Assembly (NCBI GenBank): GCA_002151545.1
Contig: CP021237.1
Coordinates: forward strand, 4,774,001 to 4,838,000
DNA: 64,000 nucleotides
Direction of reading: 5' to 3'
Source of the DNA: Sphingobacteriaceae bacterium GW460-11-11-14-LB5
GTDB lineage: Bacteria; Bacteroidota; Bacteroidia; Sphingobacteriales; Sphingobacteriaceae
Under the pieces are notes generated by a model. That model did not search any database and had not been told where the DNA came from. It saw only the letters and a list, made by a program, of their open reading frames with translations. Made by a program: the position numbers and the translations under genes. Each line of letters starts with the position of its first letter. Positions within the stretch are counted from its first letter, which is position 1. Below are positions 53,218 to 63,765 of this stretch, piece by piece.

Positions 53218-53730
53218 ATGTTAATGCGTAAATTAAAATATAGCCTTTTGCTTTTGTGTGTTGCTTTTTTTGCTGTCGGCGCAGGAATAAAACATCCCTT
53301 GCATGTAAGCACAACTGAAGTAAACTTTAATGCAAAGGATAAAACTTTAGAAGTAAGCTGTAAAATCTTTTCAGACGACTTTGAGGCCATTTTAGCCAAA
53401 TTATATAAACAGAAAACCGATCTGAGCAATCCGAATATGAAAAGCGCGATGGACGAACTGGTAAAAAAATACCTGCTTGCTCATTTACAGCTAAAAGCCA
53501 ATGGTAAAGCTGTTGCCATGAACTACATCGGATTTGAGATCGACCATGAGGCTACTAATATTTATCTTGAAGTGGAGAAAATTTCGTCTATAAAATCGGT
53601 TGAGGTGAGTAATTCTATTTTATACGATATGTTTGACGATCAGATGAGCATTGTACATATTGTAAAAGGCACCATCCGTAAAAGCACCAAAATCCTTTAC
53701 CCTGAAAAAAAGTTCACCGCAAACTTTTAA
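53218..53730 (+). CDS. DUF6702 family exported protein
   Basis: A 170-residue protein with an N-terminal hydrophobic signal (YSLLLLCVAFFAVGAGIKH). The mature part matches DUF6702 (HPLHVSTTEVNFNAKDKTLEVSCKIFSDDFE). In many Bacteroidota this family sits next to an M1 peptidase and a HupE/UreJ protein. Here those genes are 1 kb away on the other strand. It is probably periplasmic; function unknown. Confidence 0.75.
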   Translation: MLMRKLKYSLLLLCVAFFAVGAGIKHPLHVSTTEVNFNAKDKTLEVSCKIFSDDFEAILAKLYKQKTDLSNPNMKSAMDELVKKYLLAHLQLKANGKAVAMNYIGFEIDHEATNIYLEVEKISSIKSVEVSNSILYDMFDDQMSIVHIVKGTIRKSTKILYPEKKFTANF

Positions 53731-53864: not shown

Positions 53865-55133
53865 ATGCATCTAATCATCTTCTCCAACATATTAACGCCT
53901 CGGATAAAATATATCTTTAACTTTATTTTTAAAGATATTCTTAAAGCAGAATTAGAATTTACGGGCAATAGCCAATATTTTCTAGAAAGCAACCACGTCA
54001 AAATCAGTTATGGCGAGGAGCCTTTAGGCGAAGAACTTTTCTTTAAAAGCACCGCTTTACTCTTTTCCAACAAATTAGAAGAAATTAAACCCAAAACGAT
54101 CTCTTTTGGCGAGTATCAGGCTCCATTTCCGGTTGCTCAATCGGCCTTACCTTTCGATGTTTTTGCAGCCTCTTTTTTTATATTAAGCCGTTATGAAGAA
54201 TATTTTTATCCCAAAAAAAACGAAGAAGATTTTAAGCCATCAAAAAGCTACCAGCACAAATGGAAGATTTTAGATAAACCGGTTATTGATGAATGGGCAT
54301 TGATCATTAAAAGTCTGATCAAAAAAAAACATCCGCATTTTAAGTTTCATGAAAAGAAATTTCAACACCAACCAACCATACATTTCAATATATTGCCCAA
54401 CTTACCTGAGGGATTATTAAATAGAACCAAATTTATTTTCAGTGCGCTCTTTAAAAAAGAAAACAATTATTTGAGTTCGAAATTTGACAGGCTAACAGGA
54501 ATAGGCATTAACAATGAACAGGTTTTAGCTGAGGTGAGCCAGCTATTTTCTTTAAAAAAGAGTACCCCCCTTTATTTTGTCGATTTCCCTGATGTACCCA
54601 TCAATTACATTAAGATAAATGGTATTTCAAAAACACTTAGCGGCCAATCAGTTGGATTATTAAGACCTTGCGCAAGCGATAAGGAAAAAATGTTCGAGAT
54701 TAAGGAAGGCTTGGTCAAGCTCAAAAAAATTCATCCAAACCCCGTTCCGGTAAGCAGTCAACAACTGGAAGTTTTAAAATTCCCCATCTGTTATTTAAAC
54801 ATTCTCAATTCTGGCATTACTTCCGATTATTCTATGGGCTACAGCAATGTATTGGGCTTTAGGGCCGGCACCTGTACACCATTTAGCTGGTATGATCTTC
54901 AGCTTGAAAAAGTAACGCCTTTAATCGTTAATTCTTATTGCCTCACCGATCATATTCTTCAATTTTTAACACACGAAGCAGCGGTTAAAACAGTGCGCCA
55001 ATATATCGATGCAGTGAAGGTGGTAAACGGTACCTTTTATAGCAGCTGGAACCTAAAAAGCCTGTCGGCAAATGCCAAATACAAAAAATTAAAATCGCTG
55101 TTTGGAGAAATGCTGAATTACGCCGGAAATTGA
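53865..55133 (+). CDS. DUF7033/polysaccharide deacetylase-like protein, catalytic residues lost
   Basis: A 422-residue protein related to Bacteroidota two-domain deacetylases (DUF7033 plus NodB-like domain). The DUF7033 part (ALPFDVFAASFFILSRYEEY) and the landmarks DYSMGYSNVLGFRAGTCTPF (321-340) are well kept. The usual metal/catalytic motifs are not: the DxD position reads TIHFN (171-175), the GLHPS-type motif reads GLLRP (264-268), and the RQH motif reads SSQQ (297-300). It is probably a pseudoenzyme or has another function. The reading frame is open throughout. Confidence 0.78.
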   Translation: MHLIIFSNILTPRIKYIFNFIFKDILKAELEFTGNSQYFLESNHVKISYGEEPLGEELFFKSTALLFSNKLEEIKPKTISFGEYQAPFPVAQSALPFDVFAASFFILSRYEEYFYPKKNEEDFKPSKSYQHKWKILDKPVIDEWALIIKSLIKKKHPHFKFHEKKFQHQPTIHFNILPNLPEGLLNRTKFIFSALFKKENNYLSSKFDRLTGIGINNEQVLAEVSQLFSLKKSTPLYFVDFPDVPINYIKINGISKTLSGQSVGLLRPCASDKEKMFEIKEGLVKLKKIHPNPVPVSSQQLEVLKFPICYLNILNSGITSDYSMGYSNVLGFRAGTCTPFSWYDLQLEKVTPLIVNSYCLTDHILQFLTHEAAVKTVRQYIDAVKVVNGTFYSSWNLKSLSANAKYKKLKSLFGEMLNYAGN

Positions 55134-55222: not shown

Positions 55223-55870
55223 ATGATGATCTTTGATGTAAGCAAGACGAAAACTATCGCCAATACCTTTATTGCCGAACTTCGGGATGAAAACATCCAG
55301 AAAGATTCGATGCGTTTCCGCAAAAACATGGAAAGGCTTGGGGAGTTTTTTGCCTATGAGATCAGTAAATCACTTCAATACACGAGCAAAGAAATTGTAA
55401 CCCCATTAGGTGTATCACCTTGCGAAGTTTTAACTCAGCAGCCTGTTTTGGCTACGATACTCCGGGCAGGCTTACCGCTTCAACAAGGTTTGCTTAACAT
55501 CTTCGACAAAGCCGATTGCTGTTTCATTTCAGCTTATCGCAAAGTAAAAAAGAGTGGTGATTTTGTGATTCAAATGGATTACATTTCTACACCGGATTTG
55601 GAAGGTAAGGTATTAATTATGGCCGACCCAATGTTGGCTACCGGACAAAGTATGGTAATGTGCTGTAAAGAACTGATCAACCGTTATAAAGTTGCAGAAC
55701 TTCATATTGTTGCCGCAATAGCCAGTACAGAAGGTGTTGCCCATGTGCGCGCTAATCTGCCCAAAGCAAAACTTTGGCTTGGTGCCATTGATGAAGAAAT
55801 GACCAGTAAATCTTACATCGTGCCTGGGCTTGGCGATGCTGGTGATCTGGCATACGGAGAGAAAGTTTAA
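55223..55870 (+). CDS. upp: Uracil phosphoribosyltransferase
   Basis: Salvages uracil to UMP with PRPP. The 215 residues show the PRPP-binding motif LIMADPMLATGQSM (131-144) and the C-terminal uracil-binding stretch YIVPGLGDAGDLAYG. The family stretch ATILRAGLPLQQGLL is at 77-91. All active-site parts are intact. It is a single gene with no visible terminator. The annotated start gives MMIFDVSK; the second Met is equally possible. Confidence 0.93.
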   Translation: MMIFDVSKTKTIANTFIAELRDENIQKDSMRFRKNMERLGEFFAYEISKSLQYTSKEIVTPLGVSPCEVLTQQPVLATILRAGLPLQQGLLNIFDKADCCFISAYRKVKKSGDFVIQMDYISTPDLEGKVLIMADPMLATGQSMVMCCKELINRYKVAELHIVAAIASTEGVAHVRANLPKAKLWLGAIDEEMTSKSYIVPGLGDAGDLAYGEKV

Positions 55871-58366: not shown

Positions 58367-58981
58367 ATGAAAACTGCTTTTTACTTATTCGCATTAACTA
58401 TACTTTGCGCCTGCAATAGCGAAAAGAAAGAAACTGCTCAAGCGGTTATTCCAACACCTACCGGGATACAAGGCCTCCAGAAAAGCAATGCTGTTCAACC
58501 CGCAGCACAAAACGCCAAAACCAACCTTATTTTTAATCCACCACATGGCGATGCCGGGCATACCTGCGCGCTAGCGGTTGGTGCACCATTAAACCAAACA
58601 GCGGCAGTTCAACCACAAAAGAGTGTTAGTCCGCAACCCGTAACTGTTCCGGCACCACCTGCAGTAAATACCTCAGGCAAAAAATTAAATCCTAAACATG
58701 GAGAACCGGGCCACAGATGTGATATTGCGATTGGCGCCCCTTTAGATAGCAAACCCACCCAGATCGTGACCACACAGCCTGCAGTAAAGCAAACGGTAGC
58801 GATAAAAACAGGCAAGGGCTTGAACCCACCTCATGGACAGCCTAACCATAGGTGCGATATTGCTGTTGGTGCACCCTTAAATAGCAAACCTGCGCAGGCT
58901 GTAACTACGACACCTGTTCCAGTTCCTGACACTAAAACTTCAGAAACAAAAGCACTGGAGACCAAGAGTGAAGGGAAATAA
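58367..58981 (+). CDS. Lipoprotein with three His/Cys repeats
   Basis: A 204-residue predicted lipoprotein with lipobox cysteine C16 (LCAC). Three copies of a 19-residue motif, consensus NPxHGxxxHxCxIxxGAPL, lie at 57-75, 108-126 and 153-171. They are joined by Pro/Thr/Gln-rich linkers. Each repeat has two His and one Cys at fixed spacing, which suggests metal or heme binding. The repeat is found in other Bacteroidota proteins without assigned function. The tail is rich in Lys, Thr and Glu. Confidence 0.75.
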   Translation: MKTAFYLFALTILCACNSEKKETAQAVIPTPTGIQGLQKSNAVQPAAQNAKTNLIFNPPHGDAGHTCALAVGAPLNQTAAVQPQKSVSPQPVTVPAPPAVNTSGKKLNPKHGEPGHRCDIAIGAPLDSKPTQIVTTQPAVKQTVAIKTGKGLNPPHGQPNHRCDIAVGAPLNSKPAQAVTTTPVPVPDTKTSETKALETKSEGK

Positions 58982-59038: not shown

Positions 59039-59070
59039 TTAACGCACATTTTTTTACATCTTTGCGTTAA
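59039..59070 (+). promoter_or_regulatory. Inverted repeat and -7-like box at the second flippase start
   Basis: Perfect 8-bp arms TTAACGCA (59039-59046) and TGCGTTAA (59063-59070) span the promoter region up to the start codon. A -7-like box CATCTTTG (7 of 8) is at 59057-59064, five nt before the ATG. Could be an operator or sequester the start. Confidence 0.4.
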
Positions 59071-60389
59071 TGAAATTACCCGCCATAAAAGGTTTTGACG
59101 AAGAAGCATTTAACAAGTATTTAAAAAATACGGGATGGGTCATATTTGGCAAGGGGCTCAGCCTTATTGTAAACGTACTAATTACAAGCTACCTAGGTCC
59201 TATTTTATTTGGAGATTTAAGTTTTGGATTGTCTTTGGTGGCAATACTTGCTGCAGTAGGCGCCTTAGGACTTGATACTTTCATTATCCGTGAAATTATT
59301 CAGGAGCCGAATAAGCGTGATGAAATTCTGGGGACTTCATTATGGCTCAGAATAGTTACAAACGGCTTGCTTATTCCTATTGCAATTGGTATTTACTTAA
59401 TCAGCCACAATTTATCATCAAATCCCGGTACTCCCTTAACCTTACTTATTGGTCTACTTGCTTTCGCATCTTTTTTTAAATCATTTAATGTTATTGATGC
59501 ATACTTTCAGTCTCAAGTACAATCCAAATACGTTGTACAGGTCCAGAATGTATGTCTGGTTACAATTTCAATAATTAAAGTAGCTATCATTGTTTTGTCG
59601 CTTCCCTTAATCTATATTGTCTTCGCATATGTTTTAGAAGGATTGATCTTGGCAGCAGGCCTGATAATTGTTTATCAGAAACGAGGCTTTAGTATTTTCA
59701 ACTGGAGTTTTGACAAACAACGGGCGAAATCCTTATTAAGAAAATCATCGCCGCTCATCCTTTCGGCGGTAATGGTTTCCATTTACATGAAGATAGACGT
59801 GGTGATGCTAAAAAGCATTGGCAGTAAAGCCATTGGGATTTACAGTTCTGCACAAAACCTCAGCGAGGCATGGTATTTCATTCCGGTTGCAATTGTTACC
59901 TCTGTATTCCCTGCTTTATTAAATGCCCGAAAAACAGATCTGGACCGTTATCAAAAGCGGCTTAAAAACCTTTACGATCTACTAATTTTTATAAGTTTAC
60001 CTGTTGCTTTATTTATCAGCTTTTTTGCTGCAGATATTATTCACCTTATTTACAGAGGCAAATATGATGGCGCTGGCCCCATGCTTTCCATTCATATCTG
60101 GTCGGGGATTTTTGTATTTCTGGGTACTGCAAGTTCTCAGTATTTAGTTGCCGAGGGCTTTACAAAAATCTCATTTTATAGAACAGCCGCAGGTGCTATA
60201 GTCAATATTCTGCTAAATCTTTGGTTAATTCCAAAATATGGCGGTGTAGGAGCATCAGTTGCTACCCTAATAGCCTGCTTTGTATCTACATTTTATCTTT
60301 TATTAATCCCTAAAACAAGACAACAGGGTATAATGATGTTAAAATCATTATTTTTGGTCACCGCATTTCAAAAAATATTTAAACGTTGA
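59070..60389 (+). CDS. Oligosaccharide flippase (Wzx type, second copy)
   Basis: A 439-residue polytopic protein with about twelve TM helices, of the MATE-like polysaccharide flippase superfamily. It begins a second, smaller glycan gene group of a different sequence type from the Wzx at 13341-14630. It overlaps the next gene by 4 bp (TTGA). Its substrate is presumably a distinct lipid-linked glycan. Confidence 0.85.
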   Translation: MKLPAIKGFDEEAFNKYLKNTGWVIFGKGLSLIVNVLITSYLGPILFGDLSFGLSLVAILAAVGALGLDTFIIREIIQEPNKRDEILGTSLWLRIVTNGLLIPIAIGIYLISHNLSSNPGTPLTLLIGLLAFASFFKSFNVIDAYFQSQVQSKYVVQVQNVCLVTISIIKVAIIVLSLPLIYIVFAYVLEGLILAAGLIIVYQKRGFSIFNWSFDKQRAKSLLRKSSPLILSAVMVSIYMKIDVVMLKSIGSKAIGIYSSAQNLSEAWYFIPVAIVTSVFPALLNARKTDLDRYQKRLKNLYDLLIFISLPVALFISFFAADIIHLIYRGKYDGAGPMLSIHIWSGIFVFLGTASSQYLVAEGFTKISFYRTAAGAIVNILLNLWLIPKYGGVGASVATLIACFVSTFYLLLIPKTRQQGIMMLKSLFLVTAFQKIFKR

Positions 60390-61033
60390 GTACTCTTAAA
60401 GCATTAACCACATTAATTGCTAAGCCAGGCAGGCTTAAGGCATTATTATCATACGGACATAAGGGCTACCTGAACAGCATTGGCTGGTTCACGGCTTTTG
60501 ATAAAAAACAGGCAGTAGACGGTCAGGGAAAAGCATTGCCTTGGGTAACCTATTCGTTTATCGATTTTATTAAAGAACGTATTAACAAAACACAGCATAT
60601 TTTCGAGTATGGCTCTGGCAGCTCTACTATTTTTTATGCCGAAAGGGCTGGATCGGTAACTTCTGTAGAGCATGATAAAGGCTGGTTTGATAAAGTTAAA
60701 AATACAAGTCCGGCCAATGCCGAAATGATCTTTTGCCAATTGGAAAAAGATGGAGAATATGCTAAAAAAGCAACCTTGCTTGATAAAAAGTTCGACATTA
60801 TTATTGTTGATGGGCGTGATCGTGTAAACTGTTGCAAGTATAGTGTAGCAGCATTATCAGCAAATGGTGTATTGGTTTTGGATGATAGTGAGCGTGAAGT
60901 GTATAATCCTGCCCGTGTGCTTTTAAAGGCTCAGGGGTTTAAAGAAATCAGTTTCAGTGGGATTTCACCAGGTCTTTTTTACGAAAAAGCAACCTCAGTT
61001 TTTTACAAGCAGGATAATTGTTTAGGTATTTAA
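60386..61033 (+). CDS. SAM-dependent methyltransferase-like protein
   Basis: A 215-residue protein with a TTG start that overlaps the flippase stop (TTGA). It has the SAM-binding stretch HIFEYGSGSSTIFYAER followed by VTSVEHDKGW, and an IIVDGRDRV strand, as in class I methyltransferases of glycan loci. The substrate is unknown. No ATG start is available in this part of the frame. Confidence 0.78.
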   Translation: MSTLKALTTLIAKPGRLKALLSYGHKGYLNSIGWFTAFDKKQAVDGQGKALPWVTYSFIDFIKERINKTQHIFEYGSGSSTIFYAERAGSVTSVEHDKGWFDKVKNTSPANAEMIFCQLEKDGEYAKKATLLDKKFDIIIVDGRDRVNCCKYSVAALSANGVLVLDDSEREVYNPARVLLKAQGFKEISFSGISPGLFYEKATSVFYKQDNCLGI

Positions 61034-61046
61034 ATCAGTACGCATC

Positions 61047-61808
61047 ATGTTAAGCGAAGAAGTAAAAACGGCCTACGATAATTTTTATACCAATAGTGAT
61101 GTAGCATGGAGAATGCTCGGTGCAAAATATAAAGCACAAAACATTATTGATGTTTGCAAAGGATTAAAACCTAAAAAAGTGCTCGAGGTTGGCGCCGGAG
61201 ATGGCAGTATTTTACATTTTTTAAATGAATGGCATTTCACACCAGAATTGTATGCTTTAGAAATTGCGCAAAGTGGTGTCGACATTATAAAAGACCGTAA
61301 CCTTGCTAGTTTAAAAGAAGCGCAGACTTTTGATGGATACAAAATTCCTTATGAAGATGATACTTTTGATTTGATTATTCTTGCGCACGTTTTAGAACAT
61401 GTAGAACACGAAAGGATCCTGATCCGTGAATTGAAAAGAGTAGCCAAATATATTGTAGTAGAAGTACCTAAAGATTATCGTTTCGGTGTAGACCGTAGAA
61501 TGAAACATTTTCTGGATTACGGGCACATTAACATGTACACGCCTACTTCATTAAGGTTTTTGTTGCAGAGTGAAGGTTTAGAAATTTTAGAAGATAAAGT
61601 ATCAATGACTGCGCCAGAAACGGTAAAGTTTAATGAGTTTATCAATAGAAAAGCACCAAAAACGTTTGCTAAAAACTTAAAAATCGAGCTAGAATACCGG
61701 ATCAAAAAGACTTTAGGTAACTGGTTTGGGAAGAAAAAGCAAGAGCAATTTGCTAATGCCTATACCGTGCTAACCAAAAAATCTGACCATAACTTACATA
61801 TATTTTAG
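61047..61808 (+). CDS. Class I SAM-dependent methyltransferase
   Basis: A 253-residue methyltransferase with motif I VLEVGAGDGS at 45-54, the motif-IV-like stretch FDLIILAHVLEHVEHE, and EVPKDYRFGVDRR. It probably modifies a sugar or glycolipid. The last 100 bp of the gene are partly duplicated downstream (62008-62115). It follows the previous gene by 13 bp. Confidence 0.85.
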   Translation: MLSEEVKTAYDNFYTNSDVAWRMLGAKYKAQNIIDVCKGLKPKKVLEVGAGDGSILHFLNEWHFTPELYALEIAQSGVDIIKDRNLASLKEAQTFDGYKIPYEDDTFDLIILAHVLEHVEHERILIRELKRVAKYIVVEVPKDYRFGVDRRMKHFLDYGHINMYTPTSLRFLLQSEGLEILEDKVSMTAPETVKFNEFINRKAPKTFAKNLKIELEYRIKKTLGNWFGKKKQEQFANAYTVLTKKSDHNLHIF

Positions 61809-62331
61809 TGATTAAATGAGCGTATAGAGGCGAAGATCTAACCAAACTTATATGAACCTTAAACTTCTTATAAGGTGTAAGCCGTAACTGAATATACTGT
61901 TATCTTAATATTGGAATTTCATTGTGGCCATTTGAACCATATAAGAAATAGAAGAAAATATAAGTGTAATAGCTCCAACTACAAACTTTAGTTCAATAAT
62001 AGAAAGTGCCAAAACATATGCTAAAAACATAAGAATAGAACTTGAATACCGGGTAAAAAAACCTTGTGTAATTGGTTTGGAAAGAAAAGACAAGAGTAGT
62101 TTGTTAATGCCTATACTTATATGAACCTTAAACCCCTTATGTGGTGAAACCGTAACTGGATATGTTATCTTAATAATTGAAATTTCATTGTGGCCATTTG
62201 AACCATATAAGAAATAGAAGAAAATATAAGTGTAATAGCTCCCACTACAAACTTTAAATTCAATATATTGCAATAGAAATTAAATTCTGTTAAAAATACA
62301 TCCCTAGTTAATTATTTAATAAATACAAGGA
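61809..62331. repeat. Decayed tandem duplication with a fragment of the methyltransferase 3' end
   Basis: The 523-bp gap holds no intact gene. Around 62008-62115 lies a degenerate copy of the 3' end of the methyltransferase gene (original near 61645-61765). Two copies of a downstream unit (61838-61998 and 62116-62265) share long identical stretches such as 19 bp starting at 61927 and 62193. A third shorter trace is at 62757-62810. The repeat distances are 352 bp in the gene part and 266 bp in the downstream part. Confidence 0.7.
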
Positions 62332-62742
62332 ATGTTATTAACTAGAAATTACTTAAAGGACTTAGTTTACAAGGTAAACGGAGCAGCCATTGAGGTTCAC
62401 AGAACATTAGGTCCAGGGCTTTTAGAATGCACTTATCATAAATGCATGATTCACGAATTGGAAATCAGAAATATAAATTTCAAATCAGAGTTAACAGTCC
62501 CAATAGATTATAAAGGATTATTGATTGATTCAGAACTAAGGTGTGACTTATTAATTGAAGATGCTCTGGTAGTTGAGTTTAAAGCTGTTGAAAATATTGC
62601 ACCAATCCATGTGGCCCAGCTACTAACTTATATGAAATTACTAAGGCTACCACTCGGACTAATGATAAATTTTAATTGTTTACATATCTTTTCGGAAGGC
62701 CAAAAAACATATGTAAACGAGATATATGAATCAATTTATTAG
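62332..62742 (+). CDS. GxxExxY family protein
   Basis: A 136-residue protein with the family motif G29-L-L-E32-C-T-Y35. A PD-(D/E)xK-like nuclease core is visible as D72, E82 and K84 (RCDLLIEDALVVEFKAVE). Such genes occur singly within Bacteroidota polysaccharide and accessory regions. Nuclease activity is predicted from the fold, but the role is unknown. It lies between decayed repeats, which suggests insertion by transfer. Confidence 0.82.
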   Translation: MLLTRNYLKDLVYKVNGAAIEVHRTLGPGLLECTYHKCMIHELEIRNINFKSELTVPIDYKGLLIDSELRCDLLIEDALVVEFKAVENIAPIHVAQLLTYMKLLRLPLGLMINFNCLHIFSEGQKTYVNEIYESIY

Positions 62743-62847
62743 TATATTTTTGCTTTAACTTATATGAACCTTAAATTTCTTATATGGTAAAAGGTGTAGC
62801 CAACTTATTATTATGGTTAACCCTATAAAGCTTCAATCGTAAAACAA

Positions 62848-63765
62848 ATGCAAAACCTTGCCCCAATAGCACTTTTCGTATATAACCGTCCGCAGCATAC
62901 CGAGCGTACGTTACAATTCCTGCAACAAAATGAATTGGCTGCACAAAGTCATCTGTATATCTTTTCCGATGGTGCCAAAACCGTGCAGGATGAAGAAAAA
63001 GTTGCTGTGGTAAGAAAGATTATTAAAAAAGCCGAAGGTTTTAAATCGGTTAAGGTAATCGAAAGTAAGGCCAATGCAGGCTTAGCCAATTCGGTAATTG
63101 CAGGTGTAAGCCAATTAATAGCAGAACACGATCAGGTAATTGTTTTTGAAGATGACCTCGTTACCTCTCCACATACTTTAGCCTATTTCAACAATGCTTT
63201 AAATCATTACCGCGAAGAGGAAAAGGTAATGCATATTGGAGCCTACATGTATCCCTTAAAATCAGATAAACTTTCGCAATCTTTTTTCTACAGGGCAGCC
63301 ACAAGCTGGGGCTGGGCCACATGGGGAAGGGCATGGAAAAACTTCGAACCCGATATTGACGTTCTGATAAAACAGTTTGATAAAAAGAAAAGAACGGCAT
63401 TTTCCATCGATAATAAAATGAATTTCTGGAAACAGATGCAGGAGTTTAAGAAAGGGAAAAACAACAGTTGGGCCATAAGATGGTATGCTTCTATCTTTCT
63501 AAAAGGAGGCATCACACTTAATCCATCGCAATCACTCGTGAACAATATTGGGCATGATGGCACAGGTGTACACTCAGGAATAAACGACATCTATAATGTC
63601 ATTATCAACCCCAAACCAATTGTCGAATTTCCAACCGTAATAGCTGAAGATCCCATAGCTTACAAAGCCATCAAAAGCTTTTTGATTAAACGGAAAGGCA
63701 ATATGGTAACCCGTGTCAGGCGTTTTGTAAAAGAAAAGCTGGCGCAATATTTTTCAAAAAAATAA
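62848..63765 (+). CDS. Glycosyltransferase (GT-A, GT2-like)
   Basis: A 305-residue GT-A-type transferase. It begins NLAPIALFVYNRPQHTERTL, typical of a Bacteroidota family, and has a metal-binding acidic cluster E101-D102-D103 (VFEDDLVTSPHT). SWGWATWGRAW is a conserved acceptor-side stretch. A basic C-terminus (KRKGNMVTRVRRFVKEK) may bind the membrane face. Likely acts with the flippase and methyltransferases of this group. Confidence 0.83.
   Translation: MQNLAPIALFVYNRPQHTERTLQFLQQNELAAQSHLYIFSDGAKTVQDEEKVAVVRKIIKKAEGFKSVKVIESKANAGLANSVIAGVSQLIAEHDQVIVFEDDLVTSPHTLAYFNNALNHYREEEKVMHIGAYMYPLKSDKLSQSFFYRAATSWGWATWGRAWKNFEPDIDVLIKQFDKKKRTAFSIDNKMNFWKQMQEFKKGKNNSWAIRWYASIFLKGGITLNPSQSLVNNIGHDGTGVHSGINDIYNVIINPKPIVEFPTVIAEDPIAYKAIKSFLIKRKGNMVTRVRRFVKEKLAQYFSKK

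Follow-up and report, generated by a model that had tools for sequence, protein, structure and literature searches.

Orthologues with intact and with degenerate NodB/CE4-type sites at one locus in Pedobacter, with a probable pseudoenzyme among them

CE4 pseudoenzymes are a known kind of protein. Passages of PMC10967932 describe Ba0150 (4M1B) as catalytically inert and EcCDA (2VYO) as probably inactive, and a passage of PMC6115787 has Ba3943 and Ba0150 departing from the standard MT1; the PDB title of BA3943 (7bkf) describes it as a CE4 family pseudoenzyme. For BA0330 and BA0331, which are also of CE4 type, the relevant section of PMC4505593 records that no deacetylase activity was detected and proposes a structural role. 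A further point of reference is VimE of Porphyromonas gingivalis, presented in the part of PMC7468200 that deals with it as a putative deacetylase of the Wbp/Vim pathway with a part in preparing the linking sugar that anchors cargo of the type IX secretion system (T9SS).

The gene described here, located at 53865..55133 (+), encodes a protein of 422 amino acids (aa) in which a profile search and an AF2 model place a DUF7033 domain and a NodB/CE4-type barrel. Positions are those of the window, the whole 64,000 nt stretch that was analysed, which corresponds to bases 4774001-4838000 of a 6.18 Mb genome in one contig. The host is a soil bacterium and, among the best 80 of 92 relatives, the nearest loci are from Pedobacter. 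In the literature searched, there is no mention of DUF7033 as a domain name, nothing on Pedobacter and pseudoenzymes together, and no account of this branch, its spread or its probable double origin.

The gene, its surroundings and its predicted fold

The ORF begins with the ATG at 53865, its stop codon ends at 55133 and, as the initial annotation had it, the frame is unbroken. No secretion signal is apparent by eye and, on that basis, the protein is probably cytoplasmic. The sole match in a Pfam search is DUF7033 (PF23019; 78.3 bits versus a curated cut-off of 27), over residues 95-173 (54147..54383, +). Comparison with the polysaccharide deacetylase profile PF01522, which the initial annotation had recommended, gave no match at E ≤ 1, and alignment with intact orthologues of the DUF7033 type from this locus proved informative instead. 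A genome search revealed no second copy of the gene in its own genome. Six ordinary NodB (PF01522) matches are located elsewhere in this genome, and two such ordinary matches lie near each other at G000:C1:3201358-3202602.

The downstream neighbour at 55223..55870 (+), the syntenic anchor of the locus, is a gene that we take to be upp, encoding uracil phosphoribosyltransferase. Another neighbouring gene is presumably uvrB, and the neighbour at 53218-53730 is assumed to be a DUF6702-type gene. Further downstream, at 58367-58981 (+), a 204 aa protein is encoded that, by eye, has a lipoprotein-like start (ILCACNS) and three imperfect NPPHGxxxHxCDIAxGAPL-type units. The region from 59070 to 63765 (+), ~4 kb downstream of the pseudo-deacetylase, has flippase-like, methyltransferase-like and glycosyltransferase-like genes, also recognized by eye, and is possibly a surface polysaccharide cluster.

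A search of solved structures by sequence gave no credible match. The AF2 model of the window protein (pLDDT 89.8, pTM 0.90), when compared with solved structures, has CE4-type deacetylases as its top matches, with 3qbu at Z 16.0 (218 residues, rmsd 2.9), EcCDA (2vyo) at Z 14.3, BA3943 (7bkf), which has the same barrel, at Z 13.9 and Ba0150 (4m1b) at Z 12.6. The model of an intact orthologue (L057, from P. boryungensis; pLDDT 89.3, pTM 0.90) matches 2vyo at Z 15.7 (169 residues, rmsd 2.5). The window protein is thus predicted to have the NodB/CE4 barrel fold. Among the matches listed, those that begin at model residue 1 are the NDST1 N-deacetylase (8ccy and its relatives) and Agd3 (6nwz), the latter with the intact model alone. 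The rmsd values for these matches are 8.6-10.7, and a shared domain arrangement is therefore not inferred.

The degenerate motifs that the initial annotation had reported are all in place. TIHFN (residues 171-175; 54375..54389, +) takes the place of the lost DxD, the base and metal Asp by analogy with CE4; GLLRPC (residues 264-269; 54654..54671, +), within which GLLRP is residues 264-268 (54654-54668), takes that of the lost HPS His, and SSQQ (residues 297-300; 54753..54764, +) that of the lost RQH. The retained loop DYSMGYSNVLGFRAGTCTPF (residues 321-340; 54825..54884, +) is likewise present and lies within the least variable region, residues 317-350. The initial annotation had compared them correctly with the canonical motifs. 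In the alignment of 22 intact orthologues (group B below), TIHFN is opposite TIDVD or a close variant such as TIDIE (L045), the LRPCAS segment is opposite HPSYAS or a close variant such as HTSYAS (L053), and SSQQ is opposite SRQH. A fourth catalytic-type His, within WHN in 25/25 intact Pedobacter genomes, is N396 in the window protein, in WNL (residues 395-397; 55047..55055, +). H173, N175, R267, S298, Q300 and N396 therefore occupy the positions of the catalytic D, D, H, R, H and H, respectively, and, to judge from these residues, the window protein is presumably inactive.

Orthologues, retained residues and selection

One scan of species genomes identified 78 loci among the best 80 of 92 relatives, and their alignment separates 42 loci like the window (group A), 22 with TID(V/I)D, HPSY and SRQH or near variants (group B) and 14 that encode proteins of 343-376 aa in which the middle segment and all three motifs are absent (group C). 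The degenerate motifs are common to 41 loci besides the window, and a 42nd (L031) has a broken frame; as these 41 have the same form, a sequencing or frame error was ruled out as the cause. The same downstream gene is present in 42/42 A, 14/14 C and 19/22 B loci, although in seven A loci another gene (586-645 aa) intervenes between it and the deacetylase-like gene. Because all three groups occupy the same place, they look like orthologues that have changed in place. At eight loci (L021, L023, L025, L026, L029, L031, L041, L053) a minus-strand gene encoding 586-645 aa separates the deacetylase-like gene from the presumed upp, a recurrent insertion point.

In Pedobacter, a DUF7033 match is present as one copy in 117 of 145 genomes, and none of these 117 has a second match at E ≤ 0.001. 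Copies were classed by residues, with forms A and C told apart by the middle segment, which gives 25 intact and, with the window included, 92 dead copies; the latter are 53 of form A (again including the window) and 39 of the shorter form C. The 116 copies fetched in addition to the window are accordingly 25 intact, 52 A and 39 C. L045 and L132, from genomes G100 and G302, have Glu for the second Asp of the DxD and are otherwise intact; they were counted as intact by choice and, without them, 23 are intact. Outside Pedobacter, matches are found in 31 of the 251 genomes of the family that were scanned, and all 25 copies checked for residues (18 + 7) are intact. The window gene is a member of one syntenic orthologous gene, other members of which have intact NodB/CE4-type sites. 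Since a match is absent from the remaining 28 of the 145 Pedobacter genomes, the gene is dispensable. For 20 of these 28, the upp locus was searched by tblastn (E 0.01) and no remnant was detected; the upstream neighbour is a different gene in two of these 20 loci (L243 and L248).

The degenerate form is therefore not specific to one strain nor, as a group, is it decaying, the two points on which the initial annotation had called for a check. Judged by length, frames are whole in 114/116 fetched copies and 32 of the 116 are exactly 422 aa; the 39 form C copies are mostly about 345-390 aa. The two copies that look broken, a form A copy from P. agri (L031/G252) with a frameshift near codon 22 and a form C copy (G179) with an in-frame TAA stop, could be assembly errors.

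The statement that every catalytic motif has been lost goes slightly too far. Leaving the window aside, none of the other 91 dead copies retains the first Asp of the DxD, the HPS His, the RQH Arg or the RQH His, and two retain the second Asp; the WHN His remains in 25, of which 24 are form C. The Arg of GFRAGT, present in 91/91 of these copies, and the Asp of DYxMGY are, however, both kept in 92/92 dead copies when the window is included. Seven residues within the DUF7033 match (R109, E111, E112, Y113, S128, D142 and W144) and eight further downstream (D321, Y326, G335, T336, F340, W342, Y343 and D344) are the same in all 117 copies, live and dead. Since these 15 residues can hardly be kept for deacetylation in the dead copies, they constitute the best evidence for a second function, although the fold may account for part of this identity.

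In form A, the former site has been refixed as S-Q-Q plus two new cysteines and is not drifting: Q300 and C309 are present in 53/53 copies, C269 and Q299 in 52/53 and S298 in 51/53, whereas intact copies have Ser at 269 and Thr at 309 (25/25 each). At the first Asp position (173), 29 copies have N and 24 have H; the second (175) is variable, with N, S or T predominating, and of the two His positions that of HPS is mostly R and that of RQH always Q. Other metal-site residues that might restore activity were looked for, and no replacement metal site is seen in the form A alignment; from the residues, new chemistry at the replaced positions may nevertheless have arisen. In form C, positions 173, 175, 298 and 300 vary, and the C269/C309/S298/Q300-type residues of form A are not shared.

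Values of dN/dS were obtained by the Nei-Gojobori method with our own script. The median is 0.080 for form A (from the 39 pairs, of 861, that have a dS of 0.05-1) and 0.074 for the seven copies nearest the window (21/21 pairs), and seven neighbouring genes have values of 0.033-0.096. One usable pair of intact copies gives 0.089 and two form C pairs a median of 0.086, in both cases too few to compare. The dead form is under purifying selection. Calculated by region as mean dN over mean dS (218-425 of the 861 form A pairs, those for which dN and dS were both computable), dN/dS is 0.071 for residues 1-90, 0.103 for 91-173, 0.205 for 174-260, 0.157 for 261-310, 0.075 for 311-345 and 0.153 for 346-422. 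The ratio of pairwise distances in residues 166-260 to those in the first 94 residues is 1.98 in form A and 2.03 in form C versus 0.94 in group B (21 copies, L061 having been dropped because its called start is too long), so that constraint has shifted alike in both dead forms, towards the N-terminal part and the DYxMGY-GFRAGT loop. In all four sets compared, variability is lowest in the stretch 317-350, which contains DYxMGY and GFRAGT. With catalytic residues lost, the fold apparently kept, purifying selection and presence across species, the dead form has the attributes of a pseudoenzyme, as the initial annotation, with a possible binding or scaffold role in mind, had suspected, and it is this form that is found in 92 of the 117 gene-bearing Pedobacter genomes.

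The number of losses and a possible link to type IX secretion

The tree of the protein itself joins A with C (99 aLRT). In a quick neighbour-gene tree (88 loci), C is with B; with the same data, holding A and C together gave a better likelihood (p-AU 0.894), and the search that produced this tree was therefore poor. With a trimmed set of 56 loci, C again falls with B (98/96), and A+C as a clade is rejected (p-AU 0.018); rows with long branches, duplicates and others omitted for speed had been left out of this set, namely L045, L073, L083, L098, L102, L103, L105, L108 and 24 of the 42 A rows. As the intact L045 matters and is absent from the trimmed set, its genome, G100, was included in a tree of the ribosomal-operon region (23 genes, 3815 columns, LG+G4) from 40 genomes that were hand-picked to span the groups and that also served for the sortase, T9SS and TIGR03019 scans. 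In this tree, A adjoins G100/G302, which are intact (94/91), C adjoins the remaining intact Pedobacter copies (97/95), and A+C as one clade is rejected (lnL 72.8 lower, p-AU 0.00086) in a test in which the gene-less G135, G227, G050 and G120, assigned after the tree had been seen, were held with A and C. When the catalytic columns were removed, in a tree of 43 proteins picked by hand, the protein data joined A and C weakly (87/75) and did not reject the species arrangement (p-AU 0.317). The ribosomal-operon, trimmed and column-removed tests therefore make two losses the more likely, and catalysis was probably lost twice, in separate Pedobacter lineages, at one syntenic locus.

In an NCBIfam search, the sole match of the window protein is VimE (NF053580; E 3.2e-24), at 85.3 bits versus an equivalog cut-off of 440, in two stretches of which the best is at residues 309-419. 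Scores are higher for intact relatives in Pedobacter, reaching 191.9 bits, and none of the 251 genomes of the family passes the cut-off. The VimA-related family TIGR03019, used as a proxy, has a best match in the window's own genome of 22.9 bits versus a cut-off of 260. Its matches are weak and confined to 9 of the 40 genomes, with the four sampled Pedobacter genomes that carry PorU not among them, and for this reason the intact Pedobacter enzyme should not be named VimE.

PF01364 is taken here to stand for the sortase PorU. There is no such match in the window's own genome; 13 of the 145 Pedobacter genomes have one and all 13 carry the intact gene, giving 13/25 for genomes with an intact copy versus 0/92 with a dead copy versus 0/28 without the gene, counts that include relatives. 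The PorU-bearing Pedobacter on the ribosomal-operon tree (4 of the 30 with the gene) form one clade. A tie between PorU and an intact gene is suggestive only and, as PorU is also absent from the genomes of 12 of the 25 intact copies, losing it is not enough. Absence of the type IX system as a whole was considered as a cause and ruled out: SprA (TIGR04189) is present in 39/40 genomes, the window's own among those that have it, so that the translocon remains and it is the sortase family that differs. The number of T9SS tail domains per genome, in the 40 genomes, is 11-56 with PorU and 1-11 elsewhere. The two genomes with Glu for the second Asp (G100 and G302) have no PorU match and adjoin dead form A on the ribosomal-operon tree.

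Possible functions and comparison with described proteins

The explanation that we favour, and consider likely, is that the pseudo-deacetylase has been kept for binding or regulation. The enzyme would originally have been needed in a surface-glycan or anchoring step, and a second, non-hydrolytic function would already have resided, in the ancestor, in the N-terminal part that includes DUF7033 and in the DYxMGY-GFRAGT loop. In this function the protein would most likely take part in the synthesis of cell-surface glycans by binding a partner protein, a lipid-linked sugar or a sugar nucleotide. Deacetylation might then have become unnecessary in some lineages, perhaps those from which the PorU sortase branch of type IX secretion disappeared; the chemistry would have decayed while the binding or regulatory part stayed and, in the window's form, the old site would have been refixed (N/H173, C269, S298, Q299, Q300, C309). 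Refixation suggests a specific ligand or a regulatory role rather than free drift, and the dead form probably does a different, non-cutting job. A bolder version is conceivable, although we would not expect it to hold in full: that, within one genus, the deacetylase was converted in place on two independent occasions to a conserved non-catalytic form that kept the ancestral second function, that the metal site of the window's form was rebuilt (S298, Q299, Q300, C269, and C309 beside C337) for a different ligand or metal, and that it serves as a sugar-nucleotide sensor or regulatory subunit, having arisen only in lineages that lack PorU.

A single ancestral loss, followed by transfer of the dead copy from one lineage to another or by its sorting after an ancient duplication, would differ from this explanation in the number of losses only. 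It is unlikely: the gene tree does join A and C, even without the catalytic columns, and one neighbour-gene test favoured A+C (p-AU 0.894), but that clade is rejected by the ribosomal-operon tree and by the trimmed set (p-AU 0.018), the gene data without catalytic columns are compatible with the species arrangement (p-AU 0.317), all three groups are at the same syntenic place and no genome has two copies. That the window protein is still a true VimE, making the linking sugar for T9SS cargo despite its altered site, is scarcely credible. VimE, which a passage of PMC7468200 does describe as a putative deacetylase of the Wbp/Vim pathway, is its sole NCBIfam match (E 3.2e-24), but 85.3 bits is far from 440, the genome has no PorU match, its best TIGR03019 match is 22.9 bits versus 260, and the catalytic residues are gone.

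Two further readings concern what the degenerate site now does. If form A were a re-purposed enzyme, its new active site (C269, C309, S298 and Q300 with C337, D321 and R333) would catalyse a different reaction, and the near fixation of the replaced positions (Q300 and C309 53/53, C269 52/53, S298 51/53), where intact copies instead have Ser at 269 and Thr at 309 (25/25 each), counts in its favour; the split at the first Asp position (N 29, H 24), the variable second position and the absence of these residues from form C nevertheless make it improbable. Slightly less probable still is a slowly decaying relic, a gene on its way out with catalysis useless and no function left. Such decay would fit the 28/145 Pedobacter genomes that have no match, with no remnant at the 20 loci examined, the relaxed middle of the barrel (dN/dS 0.205 for 174-260 versus 0.071 for 1-90) and a form C, mostly about 345-390 aa, that is without the middle segment. 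It does not fit the overall dN/dS of 0.080 in form A, the frames whole by length in 114/116 fetched copies, the exact length of 422 aa in 32 of them or the non-catalytic residues that do not vary among live and dead copies.

A gene that resembles a polysaccharide deacetylase gene is readily taken to encode an enzyme, and the results warn against passing on 'deacetylase' or 'VimE' by name. With live and dead orthologues at one locus in a single genus, and probably two origins, the locus is a natural experiment in which the features common to live and dead copies should reveal the non-catalytic function of DUF7033.

The nearest described proteins differ from the window protein in several ways. 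According to the relevant section of PMC4505593, BA0330 and BA0331 are lipoproteins that bind peptidoglycan, and BA0330 keeps its metal ligands. VimE is the window protein's only NCBIfam match, but the window protein is far below the cut-off and without the catalytic residues, and its genome has neither a PorU match nor a clear VimA-type match. BA3943, Ba0150 and EcCDA have the same CE4 barrel and are described as inactive. To our knowledge, these three have no DUF7033 domain, whereas the window protein has one, and its dead form is present in 92 of the 117 gene-bearing genomes of one genus.
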